A stretch of 44,787 bases of DNA. Origin: Clostridia bacterium. Lineage in GTDB: Bacteria > Bacillota > Clostridia > Christensenellales > Aristaeellaceae. A program made the translations under genes and the position numbers. The DNA lies in NCBI GenBank assembly GCA_017936375.1, contig JAGBFR010000074.1, forward strand, positions 1-44,787, written 5' to 3'. Position 1 is the stretch's first letter; each line of letters starts with the position of its first letter. Shown piece by piece: positions 24,998 through 29,363 of the stretch. Under the pieces are notes generated by a model, which saw only the letters and a list, made by a program, of their open reading frames with translations, was not told the origin of the DNA and did no database searches.

Positions 24998-25758
24998 TCT
25001 ATCTGCTCCTCGGCGCAGTCTGCGCCTTCTTCGGTATGAGCACCGGGCTGGGCGCAACGACGCTCCTGCGCCCCGTCCTTGACGCCGTGTCGCCCCTTGC
25101 ACCGCAGTCAGCCGCGGCGGTCGCAGCGATGGCGACGCTCTGCGCGGCGCTCGTCGGCGCGTTCTTCGCCCTCTCCCAGCCGCTCGCCCTCCCTCAGGAG
25201 GAATTGCTCTTCATCGCTGCCGGTGCGGCACTTGGCGGGATATTGGGCGATCTGGGCGCATCCCGCTTCTTCACGATGGTCACGCCGGCGGCAGCGTCGC
25301 TCCTGCAGAATGCGCTGCTCTTCACCCTCATCGCGCTGCCGTCGATATACTTCGGCACGCTGGCCCACAGCCTCAGCCCGCTGATCCTCCCGAGGATTTA
25401 TACCTTCCCCGCGGCGCTGGCGGCAGGCCTCGCCGCCTCCTTCCTCTCCTTTGGCGCGGAGCCGCTGACGCTCATGCTCTGCTTCGTCCTGCTGGACATG
25501 GAAAACGACGAATCCCACCTCTGTGCGCTGACGGTTGCGCTCTTCTCCATGGCGGGCAAGCTGGTCACCCTGCTCATCCGCAGCCGGTTCATCCTGCCCA
25601 GCGCGGACGTCCTCATCTGGCTCCTGCCGGGGATGATCATCGGCGCGCTGCTCGCCGTCACCCTTGGCAGCAGGCATGCCAGCGCAAGGAGCGCAGACGC
25701 GCTGCTCAAGCTGAGTCTCTTCACCTCGCTGCTCAATATGGCCGCAGCATGGCTGTAA
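24994..25758 (+). CDS. TSUP (TauE/SafE) family membrane permease
   Basis: 254 residues with about seven to eight hydrophobic helices. The pattern fits the TSUP superfamily: FFGMSTGLGATTLLRPVL in helix one, a conserved Gly-rich GAALGGILGDLGASRF in the first repeat, and PGMIIGALLAVTLGSRHA in the second. TSUP proteins export or import sulfite, sulfonates, formate-like or other small anions. The substrate here is unknown. The ATG overlaps the enolase stop by four bases, so the two genes are translationally coupled, an odd pairing. The gene has no ribosome binding site of its own. Confidence 0.8.
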   Translation: MIYLLLGAVCAFFGMSTGLGATTLLRPVLDAVSPLAPQSAAAVAAMATLCAALVGAFFALSQPLALPQEELLFIAAGAALGGILGDLGASRFFTMVTPAAASLLQNALLFTLIALPSIYFGTLAHSLSPLILPRIYTFPAALAAGLAASFLSFGAEPLTLMLCFVLLDMENDESHLCALTVALFSMAGKLVTLLIRSRFILPSADVLIWLLPGMIIGALLAVTLGSRHASARSADALLKLSLFTSLLNMAAAWL

Positions 25759-25769
25759 GGCATAGAAAA

Positions 25770-25802
25770 ACCCCATGAAGGCTACTATGGCCCTCATGGG
25801 GT
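25770..25802. terminator. Bidirectional terminator between the TSUP and pflA genes
   Basis: ACCCCATGA pairs with TCATGGGGT, with GGC/GCC pairing inside. AAAAA on the left and TATATT on the right give U-rich tails in either direction. Confidence 0.85.
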
Positions 25803-25809
25803 ATATTGC

Positions 25810-26580
25810 TTATCCTCGCGCAGCTTCCTGCTTCATGCGCATTCTCTCCGCCTTCATGCTCTCCAGAATGACGCCTCTGGCCTCGGCTGCCCGCTGCTTG
25901 GGCAGCGCCTCCACGCCCGCCAGCGGGTAGGGAATGCCGAGCTTTTCATACTTGTTCACGCCCATCGTGTGATAGGGCAGCACATCAAGCGCCTTAACAT
26001 TGGGCAGATGCGCGATAAACCGCCCGAGACGCTGCTGCTCCTGCACGTCGTCCGTGATGCCGGGGACGATGACATGGCGGATCCAGACAGGGATATTCCT
26101 GCGCGCCAGATACTTTGCAAAGGCGAGGATTCCCTCGTTCCCATGCCCGGTGAGCTCCCTGTGCGCATCGGGATCGATGTGCTTGATATCCAGCATGACC
26201 AGATCGGTCATGCCCATCAGCCGATCGAGCTTTTTATTGTACGCGCTTTCCCCCTCGCGGTAGGTGATGCCGGAGGTGTCGATGCAGGTGTGAATCTGCC
26301 TCTCCCTGCACAGGCGGAAGAGCTCCAGCATAAAGTCGATCTGCAGCAGCGGCTCGCCGCCGGTGACCGTGATGCCTCCGTTCTTATAGAACGCCCGATT
26401 ACGCTCGAACTGGCTGATGATCTCCTCCGCCGTCATGGGATTGCCCTTGCCGGCTTCCCATGTGTCCGGGTTATGGCAGTACTTGCAGCGCATGGGACAG
26501 CCCTGCATAAAGACGACAAAGCGCAGACCCGGGCCGTCCACCGTGCCAAAGCTCTCGATTGAATGAATATTGCCGTGCAT
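25810..26580 (-). CDS. pflA: Pyruvate formate-lyase activating enzyme
   Basis: 256 residues, a radical SAM protein. The iron-sulfur motif CxxxCxxC is Cys28-Cys32-Cys35 in QGCPMRCKYCHNPDTW. GGITVTGGEPLLQ follows for SAM binding. The N-terminal HSIESFGTVDGPGLRFVVF is typical of PflA. It abstracts hydrogen from the glycine of pyruvate formate-lyase, here on the separate 80-residue protein encoded upstream. The ATG at 26578-26580 stands eight bases after AGGTG. A GTG three codons earlier is rejected. Expression is probably reduced relative to the lyase genes by the terminator at 26602-26629. Confidence 0.95.
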   Translation of the reverse strand: MHGNIHSIESFGTVDGPGLRFVVFMQGCPMRCKYCHNPDTWEAGKGNPMTAEEIISQFERNRAFYKNGGITVTGGEPLLQIDFMLELFRLCRERQIHTCIDTSGITYREGESAYNKKLDRLMGMTDLVMLDIKHIDPDAHRELTGHGNEGILAFAKYLARRNIPVWIRHVIVPGITDDVQEQQRLGRFIAHLPNVKALDVLPYHTMGVNKYEKLGIPYPLAGVEALPKQRAAEARGVILESMKAERMRMKQEAARG

Positions 26581-26601
26581 AACTGTCACACCTGCTTTCT
26601 C

Positions 26602-26629
26602 AAAAAACCCCTCCCCATTCGGGGAGGGG
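26602..26629 (-). terminator. Intercistronic terminator before pflA
   Basis: Minus-strand CCCCTCCCC-GAAT-GGGGAGGGG, a 9-bp GC stem, followed by six T residues. It sits between the glycyl-radical gene and pflA with no evident new promoter, so pflA would be read by partial read-through. Confidence 0.85.
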
Positions 26630-26639
26630 CAATGTGCTG

Positions 26640-26882
26640 TTACAGCGCCTCGTGGAAGGTACGGGAGATGACCTCGTCCTGCTGCTCCTTGGTGAGCTTG
26701 ATGAAGTTCACCGCGTAGCCGCTGACGCGGATGGTCAGCTGCGGATACTTCTCCGGATGCGCCTGCGCATCCAGCAGGGTTTCCCTGTTGAGGACGTTGA
26801 CGTTGAGGTGGTGGCCGCCCTTCTTGACATAGCCGTCAAGCATGGTCACCAGGTTATCAATCTGATTCTGCGTAGCAGTCAT
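26640..26882 (-). CDS. Separate glycyl-radical domain of pyruvate formate-lyase (GrcA-like)
   Basis: 80 residues matching only the C-terminal end of pyruvate formate-lyase: [40 protein letters not shown], then RVSGYAVNF where Gly55 is the radical site, and a final helix [12 protein letters not shown]. It resembles GrcA/YfiD, the 'spare part' that repairs oxygen-cleaved lyase in enterobacteria. Here, however, the neighbouring large subunit lacks this domain, so the small protein should be its obligatory partner. It has its own ribosome binding site (AAAGGAG, 26892-26898, nine bases before the ATG) and starts 46 bases after the stop of the large gene. An upstream TTG (26888) is a weaker start. 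Confidence 0.9.
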
Positions 26883-26928
26883 TGTCAATATCTCCTTTCA
26901 GCGTGATTACGCTCAGTCAGTCGCCGGA

Positions 26929-29031
26929 TTACTCGCGGTCCATGCCCTCAAAGAGGGTCGGGGTCGCGGCGCAGTTGTCGCCGCAGCAATCCAGATCGAT
27001 CTCCAGGTCGCCGGCGAAGATCGTGTCTTCCTTGCCCAGCGCGCCCGGGATGATGGTGAAGGTATTGGAAATGCCGTCCTGCGCATCCTTGAACGGGAGC
27101 TTGGCGACGGAGGCCATGGACGCGACAGCGCCATGGGTGTCACGGCGGTGCATCGGGTTGGCGCCCGGCGCGAAAGCCTCGCCGCGCTTACGGCCGTCCG
27201 GCGTGGAGCCGGTCGCCTTGCCGTAGACGACGTTGGAGGTGATGGTCAGGATGGAGGTCGTCGGGATGGAATCACGATAGGTGTGGTTCTTGCGGACGTG
27301 CTCCATGAAGCGATGGACGATGTCGGTCGCGATCTCGTCGACGCGGTCGTCGTCGTTGCCGTACTTCGGGAACTCGCCTTCGACCTGGTAGTCAACGGCC
27401 AGGCCGGTCTCGTCGCGGATAACCTTGACCTTCGCATACTTGATGGCGGACAGGGAGTCGGCCACGACGGACAGGCCCGCGATGCCGGTGGCGAACCAGC
27501 GGGTCACGTTCTTGTCGTGCAGGGCCATCTGCAGCTTCTCGTAGCAATACTTGTCATGCATGTAGTGGATGACGTTCAGGGTATTGACATACACCTCGGC
27601 CAGCCAGCGCATCATGGCGTCATACTTCTTCATGACCTCATCGTAATCGAGGTACTCAGAGGTGATCGGGGTGAACTCCGGGCCGACCTGCTTGTGGGAG
27701 ACCTCGTCCACGCCGCCGTTGATGGCGTAGAGCAGGCACTTGGCCAGGTTGGCGCGGGCGCCGAAGAACTGCATCTCCTTGCCCAGACGCATGGAAGACA
27801 CGCAGCAGGCGATGGCGTAGTCGTCGCCATGGGTGAAGCGCATCAGATCGTCATTCTCATACTGCACAGAGGAAGACTCGATGGAGGTCTTCGCGCAGAA
27901 GCGCTTGAAGTTCTCCGGCAGGTGCTCAGACCACAGAACGGTCAGGTTCGGCTCCGGCGCCGGGCCGAGGTTCTGCAGGGTGTGCAGGTAGCGGTAAGAC
28001 ATCTTGGTGACCATGTGACGGCCGTCGATGGCGACGCCGCCGATGGACTCGGTAACCCACTGCGGGTCGCCGGAGAAGAGCGCGTTGTATTCCGGTGTAC
28101 GGGCAAACTTGACCATGCGCAGCTTCATGATGAAGTGGTCGACCATCTCCTGAATCTCAGACTCAGTGAAGGTGCCGTTGGCCAGGTCGCGCTCGGCGTA
28201 GATGTCCAGGAAGGTGCTGGTGCGGCCCAGGGACATGGCGGCGCCGTTCTGCTCCTTGATCGCGCCGAGATAGCCAAAGTACAGCCACTGGATGGCTTCC
28301 TTGACGTTCTTGGCCGGCTTCATGATGTCAAAGCCATAGGAGGCCGCCATCTTCGCCAGATCCTGCAGGGCGCGGATCTGCTCGGAGAGCTCCTCGCGCT
28401 CGCGGATGACCTTGGAATACATCGCGGAGCGGGTGGTCTCCTTCTGCTCCATCTTGTCCTCGATCAGGCGCTCAATGCCGTAGAGGGCCACGCGGCGGTA
28501 GTCGCCAATGATGCGGCCGCGGCCATAGGCGTCCGGCAGACCGGTGATGATGTGGCTGGAGCGGCAGGCGCGCATCTCCGGGGTGTAGACGTCAAAGACG
28601 CCCGCGTTGTGGGTCTTGCGATGGACGGTGAAGAACTCGCTGATCTTGGGATCGACGGTGTAGCCGTTGTCCTTGCAGGCCTTCTCCGCCATGCGGATGC
28701 CGCCGTAGGGCATCAGCGCGCGCTTGAAGGGCTTGTCGGTCTGGAAGCCGACGATGGTCTCCTTGTCCTTATTGAGGTAGCCCGGGCCGTGAGAGGTGAT
28801 GGTGGAGATGATCTCCGTGTCCATATCCAGCACGCCGCCGTGCTCGCGCTCCTCCTTGGAGAGCTGAGAAACCTGCTCCCACAGGTCAAGGGTATTCTGA
28901 GTCGGTCCGGCGAGGAAGGCCTCGTCGCCGTTATAGGGGGTGTAGTTGTGACGGATGAAGCTTCTTACGTTGATTTCACGGGTCCAGGTACCGGCCTCAA
29001 AGCCTTCCCAAGCCTCATACTTGTAAGCCAT
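26929..29031 (-). CDS. pflB: Pyruvate formate-lyase catalytic subunit lacking the glycyl-radical domain
   Basis: 700 residues, against about 750-760 in complete enzymes. It matches PflB from the N-terminus ([40 protein letters not shown]) to the [20 protein letters not shown] region. The catalytic pair Cys409-Cys410 is in [20 protein letters not shown]. After [17 protein letters not shown] the chain ends in a short tail with Cys682, Cys683 and Cys687 instead of the glycyl-radical domain, which is encoded separately downstream. Together with that protein and PflA it would cleave pyruvate plus CoA to acetyl-CoA and formate anaerobically. AAGGAG stands seven bases before the ATG. Confidence 0.93.
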
Positions 29032-29087
29032 AATCCCACTCCTTATCTATAATTATCCGTATAAAACAGGTTGCATGGTGCAGGCCA

Positions 29088-29116
29088 AATATATCACATT
29101 CAGGACTGAAATTCAA
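29088..29116 (-). promoter_or_regulatory. Promoter of the pfl operon
   Basis: Minus-strand TTGAAT (29111-29116), 17 bases, TATATT (29088-29093), 57 bases before pflB. I see no convincing FNR or Rex box around it. Confidence 0.6.
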
Positions 29117-29363
29117 TACTTATCGTGTTTTCTGAATAACCAGAAAATCAGCTTTGTCCATGTCAATTCTGCTTATCCGCCCCTTCATTCTGTGCATCCC
29201 CTCTTAAATTCATACTGTCAAACACAGGCATCTGCACAATCCTCTTCACAGCATTGCCAGATATTCCCGACATTGCAAATAGAAGGATGATTTCAGCATT
29301 GCCAGTATCTGCACGATTTGTATCCCTTCCGTCTATGCCGCCGCTCTTCGCATGCCAAAAAGA
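29117..29363. other. Intergenic region upstream of the pfl promoter
   Basis: About 250 bases with no gene I can support. The string AGCATTGCCAG occurs twice (near 29250 and 29296), which may be chance or a protein-binding repeat. The right end carries the dusB terminator. Confidence 0.35.

Follow-up and report, generated by a model that had tools for sequence, protein, structure and literature searches.

In anaerobes, pyruvate formate-lyase (PFL) is a main route from pyruvate to acetyl-CoA. Oxygen destroys the glycyl radical of the enzyme and cleaves the protein backbone. The window, a stretch of 44,787 nucleotides from a Clostridia bacterium of the Aristaeellaceae (assembly GCA_017936375.1, contig JAGBFR010000074.1), carries a pflB gene that ends ahead of the radical loop, and a short second gene that encodes this loop. 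Is this a damaged gene, or an enzyme made of two chains? The initial annotation had described two separate genes, and their coordinates and lengths, the gap of 46 nt, the AAAGGAG motif, Cys409-Cys410 and Gly55 were all confirmed. The genome is a draft of 2.85 Mb in 75 contigs, 81% complete. The order of genes is pflB-large, 46 nt, grcA3 and then pflA, with the following features:

29088..29116, minus strand: promoter-like site 5' of pflB-large, 9 of 12 consensus matches (weak evidence)
26929..29031, minus strand: pflB-large, 700 aa, PFL catalytic body without the glycyl-radical loop (TIGR01255 positions 1-665 of 744, 1103.5 bits)
27802..27807, minus strand: codons of Cys409-Cys410, from the alignment to E. 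coli C418-C419
26932..27024, minus strand: split-type acidic C-terminal tail, residues 670-700 of pflB-large
26892..26898, minus strand: AAAGGAG ribosome binding site of grcA3, nine bases 5' of the ATG
26640..26882, minus strand: grcA3, glycyl-radical subunit of 80 aa (NF038360, 167.3 bits, cut-off 158)
26718..26720, minus strand: codon of Gly55 (RVSGYAV), predicted radical site, from the alignment to the E. coli PFL C-terminus
26607..26630, minus strand: terminator-like stem-loop of 10 pairs with a T run in the interval between grcA3 and pflA (consensus scan; weak evidence)
25810..26589, minus strand: pflA, PFL activase (radical SAM), 259 aa (TIGR02493, 306 bits, cut-off 231.75)

The consensus scan of positions 25700-29300 yielded three promoter-like sites versus a mean of 1.3 in shuffled sequences, and four terminator-like sites on both strands versus a mean of 2.8; no promoter-like site was located between pflB-large and grcA3. 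The RNA fold at the junction of both genes was no better than that of shuffled sequences (z 0.30). Two further stop codons, TGA and TAA, are present in the frame of the small gene between the stop of the large gene and the ATG of the small one.

Together the two proteins cover the PflB family model. The large protein scored above the TIGR01255 cut-off (1103.5 versus 994.2 bits) with a match that stops at position 665 of 744, and the small protein, a separate ORF that holds the radical glycine, matched positions 664-744. The Pfam Gly_radical domain was divided as well, with positions 1-52 of 106 in the large and 49-106 in the small protein. By score the latter belongs to the NCBIfam family NF038360 'GrcA3'; matches to GrcA/YfiD (TIGR04365, 97.2 bits, model positions 66-126 only) and GrcA2 (NF008341, 106.4 bits) remained under the cut-offs of 170 and 145 bits. 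The activase expected for a PflB adjoins the pair and lies above its own family cut-off. Cys409-Cys410 of the large protein align with C418-C419 of E. coli, and Gly55 of the small protein aligns inside RVSGYAV of the E. coli PFL C-terminus, which we take to be the Gly734 site in the numbering of PMC8683613 and PMC12338860. The barrel sequence, the Cys-Cys pair, the sequence of the radical loop and the PflA activase are common to the window and one-piece PflB (TIGR01255; E. coli 1h16), whereas the radical loop and the final helix of the window's enzyme are placed on a second chain.

The large gene ends at residue 700, as initially annotated, but this end does not coincide with the edge of the radical domain. 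Homology to one-piece enzymes ceases at about residue 669 (LGKED), and the last 31 residues, 670-700, do not open the radical domain but form an acidic tail of a type encountered here in split enzymes only; the one-piece enzymes compared lack such an ending. In the tailed large proteins of the 80 loci described below, 13-45 residues follow the LGK-x-D motif, with a net charge of -13 to -2 (mean -6.2). Of 66 tails from relatives, 60 had a G[DE][LI] motif within 16 residues of LGK (53 of the 58 distinct tails), whereas none of 70 one-piece records did (62 distinct). At least two cysteines occurred in 27 of the 66 tails (L079-L158), e.g., DCGCCEGTC in Gastranaerophilales.

Glycyl-radical domains were detected at four places in the genome: in both halves of the split enzyme and in two further enzymes, which both hold their own radical domain. 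One of these is PFL2-like (best NCBIfam match TIGR01774, 292 bits, cut-off 678.2), the other is the anaerobic ribonucleotide reductase NrdD. The check for a full-length pflB revealed no one-piece PFL in the genome, an absence that is not final since the genome is 81% complete. Within this scope no source of the PFL radical other than the small protein was found, as had been proposed, and in this the small protein differs from GrcA/YfiD. The census of the genus comprised 29 genomes, the window's included: eight with the split form (G000, G003, G008, G010, G016, G019, G026 and G027, the last being 99% complete), seven with a one-piece PFL-type gene, one with a distant enzyme alone and 13 without a match at a threshold of E 1e-25. 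No genome among the 29 had both the split and a one-piece PFL. Three of the seven one-piece genes (G007, G009, G013) form a divergent paralogue group with the motif ICCCVSA. With neither form in 13 of the 29 genomes, PFL is either dispensable in the genus or absent from the bins. G019 possesses two split pairs, G019:C2 and G019:C110 (L039, L038), the second of which is cut by a contig end.

Conservation of the split among relatives was borne out in seven other species of the genus and in the best 80 loci with a small gene from a scan of named genomes. The small gene stood alone in 78 of these 80 loci; the exceptions were a one-piece gene (L144) and a fusion with a long linker (L146). Upstream on the same strand, 71 of the 78 stand-alone small genes had a large gene, whole or as far as the contig extends, in one case with a broken frame (L118). 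No large gene was found in the loci L092, L098, L128, L142, L154, L155 and L158, with L142 and L155 situated at contig starts. The motif RVSGYAV was present in all 78 stand-alone small proteins and ACCVS in all 62 large proteins longer than 640 aa, and the cysteine pair was invariant across 37 aligned large proteins. Comparison of the window with seven relatives gave a dN of 0.07-0.13 in both genes at a pS of 0.70-0.94, near saturation. These figures support the initial annotation in that both halves keep their key residues and are not a product of simple decay; the large gene is, judged by the substitutions, under strong purifying selection. Distances between large proteins correlated with those between small proteins (r = 0.69 over 62 loci, none of 2000 permutations as high), which points to co-inheritance. 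A Shine-Dalgarno-like motif preceded the small gene in 74 of 77 cases checked. The gap between large and small gene measured 121-982 nt in 42 of 70 pairs. In 48 of the 80 loci, a pflA-like motif followed at most 1.2 kb downstream; in 29 it was missing despite sufficient room, and in three the room was too small. Of 148 genomes drawn from across the class, at least 76 had a PFL above the cut-off among the matches listed, and at least six genomes besides the window's had TIGR01255 matches ending at positions 663-669 of 744; a second, full PFL was not among the matches listed for these six.

Small free glycyl-radical proteins able to complete a PFL body are likewise represented by GrcA/YfiD (TIGR04365) and GrcA2 (NF008341). 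GrcA of E. coli has a disordered N-terminus of 60 residues and repairs a complete PFL (PMC8683613), whereas the protein of the window lacks this extension. To regard the arrangement as unusual was too strong a claim: GrcA3 is a named family in NCBIfam, and RefSeq annotates a pair of pflB and grcA3 in Collinsella aerofaciens in the same large-then-small order, with a large gene of 2052 nt and no pflA among the seven features shown on the record. This pair (L265) is located at NZ_OY725717.1 710254-712642, on a circular record of 0.9 Mb labelled plasmid 6. The name of the GrcA3 family denotes an autonomous cofactor and is silent on a partner PflB without its own radical domain. Two PDB chains entitled 'Formate acetyltransferase', 38lb_A and 38la_A, are likewise PFL bodies without the radical domain; one of them carries a tail (GKSGNVMFGECD...), the other stops at LGKED. 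The window's small protein matched 34 sequences, none of them a small chain of 38la or 38lb, and 38la could be an engineered truncation. The parts are thus already catalogued as an NCBIfam family, a RefSeq pair and two PDB large chains. In the open-access literature searched, no paper used the term 'GrcA3'. Among the matches listed, no title or abstract described a naturally split PFL, and in these texts we met no published account of the obligate split with its tail and spare copies.

A tree of the large protein was calculated from 124 rows without the tail and the radical domain, by a quick method with SH-aLRT support only. The rows were gathered largely by likeness to the small gene, hence split forms are over-sampled; ten rows that were too short or unparsed had been dropped (L065, L069, L076, L079, L097, L105, L118, L120, L136, L150), and other loci that duplicated or nearly duplicated a row were removed by hand. 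One supported clade (99) contained 50 tailed split proteins of the window's type, the fusion L146 and L144, a one-piece enzyme (present twice, as L219). The genomes in it include ones labelled Lachnospiraceae, Oscillospiraceae (Ruminococcus), Erysipelotrichaceae, Coriobacteriia (Collinsella, Atopobiaceae) and Gastranaerophilales, although a metagenome bin may in some cases have been labelled incorrectly. In a second clade (100), 13 tail-less splits were mixed with four one-piece enzymes. At least six changes between split and one-piece forms are needed on the tree if the fusion is scored as one-piece. The one-piece PFLs of the window's genus fall outside the split clade, which suggests horizontal transfer or replacement. 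L146 (1910-4234, Lachnospiraceae RGIG7104) is a natural fusion of a split-type large and a small protein, with 39 residues from LGK to NL in the radical part versus 6 in L144 (2003-4225), a one-piece PFL within the split clade that is probably a clean re-fusion. The presence of both inside this clade indicates that splitting is not always favoured. L020, L022, L023 and L220 constitute a divergent one-piece group with three active-site cysteines (ICCCVSA), possibly acting on another substrate.

Some genomes hold more small genes than large ones. Eight of 30 hand-picked genomes had one split large and two small genes, a ratio that is not a frequency because six of the eight had been picked for a small gene without a neighbouring large one. 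The two small copies within a genome were 87-94% identical (78/90 to 75/80). Contig ends hide part of the small-gene neighbourhood in G436 and G452; in the latter, only about 400 nt separate the second small gene from the contig end, and its upstream neighbour is hidden. L142, located where a contig begins and identical to the operon copy of G434, is probably the operon copy in G436 rather than an orphan. The orphan small genes L092 and L128 adjoin Crp/Fnr-type regulators, one of them also being near a ferritin gene, and no such regulator was among the two tested neighbours of each of the orphans L098, L154 and L158. Only one of 28 genomes with a split gene or a part of it had a one-piece PFL-type gene in addition, Claveliimonas bilis with a divergent SICCCVSA paralogue. 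In two Lachnospiraceae loci, a Clostridiales-1 RNA (RF01699) was located directly 3' of grcA3 and ahead of the pflA-like motif (L110, 4245-4408; L097, 628-787). The element occurred in 14 of 20 such genomes, above the cut-off in nine and with up to 13 matches in one; because of this dispersal we claim no particular connection to grcA3.

We conclude that the pair very probably encodes a working two-chain PFL. An obligate two-polypeptide enzyme with an exchangeable radical subunit is the explanation we hold to be probable, with assembly and exchange inferred. The large protein of 700 aa would form the barrel with the cysteine pair that attacks pyruvate, and the 80-aa protein would contribute what this body lacks, the glycyl-radical loop and the C-terminal helix. 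PflA, encoded nearby, would install the radical on Gly55; the loop of the small subunit would then sit in the barrel and abstract a hydrogen atom from the active-site cysteine, a place taken in E. coli by Gly734 or GrcA. Since the radical resides on a separate chain, oxygen would cleave this chain alone, into 54 and 26 residues. A fresh subunit of 80 aa, about 10% of the residues of the enzyme, could then take its place in the body. Work on E. coli provides a precedent. PFL cut at residue 695 together with YfiD, once activated, equals the wild-type activity (PMC8683613), and a PflB-G734A strain formed formate with GrcA and none without it (PMC12338860). The precedent and the second small genes are consistent with the replaceable radical subunit suggested in the initial annotation. 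When the body had been cut at 695, binding of YfiD was not measurable, and YfiD activated this body less well than oxygen-cleaved PFL; binding required residues 696-733 of the cleaved PFL, and the disordered N-terminus of YfiD was of importance (PMC8683613). Given that lack of measurable binding, a tight two-chain enzyme would need a compensation, which we assume to be the tail. Placed where the split body now ends, it may aid docking of the small subunit, and may have taken over recognition, as GrcA3 lacks the YfiD-type disordered N-terminus. The assignment as docking element is tentative, with a probability somewhat below one half; the 13 tail-less splits in the tree indicate that a tail is not generally required.

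That the exchange of the radical chain is the selective reason for the split is a narrower claim, towards which we incline slightly. A stable heteromer could have arisen without exchange, by a chance split that left both halves necessary and was kept and spread without any benefit of replacement. Co-inheritance and the single main clade would fit this course, as would the 46 nt between the window's genes without a promoter-like site and the return of the L144 lineage to one piece. It is nevertheless unlikely, for the spread across several phylum labels, the second, tail-less split clade, the long gaps in 42 of 70 pairs and the separate second small genes all exceed the expectation for a frozen accident. 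Quite improbable is an independent dosing, in which the separate radical chain regulates the number of active sites and has no part in repair. The same long gaps and the regulators of the Crp/Fnr type beside L092 and L128 speak for it; the close spacing of the window's pair, again without a promoter-like site between, and the three orphans without such a neighbour speak against it. There is very little probability that the large gene is a decaying remnant and that its small neighbour serves, in the manner of GrcA, to repair a different, complete glycyl radical enzyme: the family name 'autonomous glycyl radical cofactor' suggests such a role, but purifying selection on the large gene is strong and its active site is kept, the genome at 81% completeness yielded no complete PFL, the PFL2-like enzyme and NrdD carry their own radical domains and belong elsewhere, and a one-piece PFL accompanies the split in just one of 28 genomes. 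A sequencing or assembly error that split an ordinary pflB, imaginable for a draft of 75 contigs and 81% completeness, can be dismissed in view of the additional tail sequence, the ribosome binding site and the same split in seven other congeneric species and in isolates, some of which have complete records (e.g., Ruminococcus bicirculans 80/3 chromosome II and Claveliimonas bilis c-25), and a single-base error is ruled out by the two extra stops in the frame of the small gene together with the split in relatives.

Read-through of the stop codon was rejected as well, because the gap of 46 nt in the window is not a multiple of three and the other congeneric copies have their own ribosome binding sites. 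In these eight copies, the gap was 15 or 18 nt in seven and 63 nt in L034, all multiples of three with large and small gene in one frame.

For the two-polypeptide PFL with an exchangeable radical subunit, a wider reading can be offered, at a probability slightly under one half: gut anaerobes of several phyla may have a radical subunit that is disposable by design, docked by the tail and backed by spare copies elsewhere in some lineages, so that turnover of a subunit would be the strategy by which a central enzyme of strict anaerobes survives oxygen. A truncated-looking pflB in gut genomes can be the intact partner of a grcA3. The two-chain PFL presents a clean system for the study of radical transfer between chains, docking and stoichiometry, and a radical on a cheap separate chain offers a direct test of the survival of gut anaerobes under brief oxygen exposure. 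Many gut bacteria have kept this split, which may let the cells swap the oxygen-destroyed part alone.
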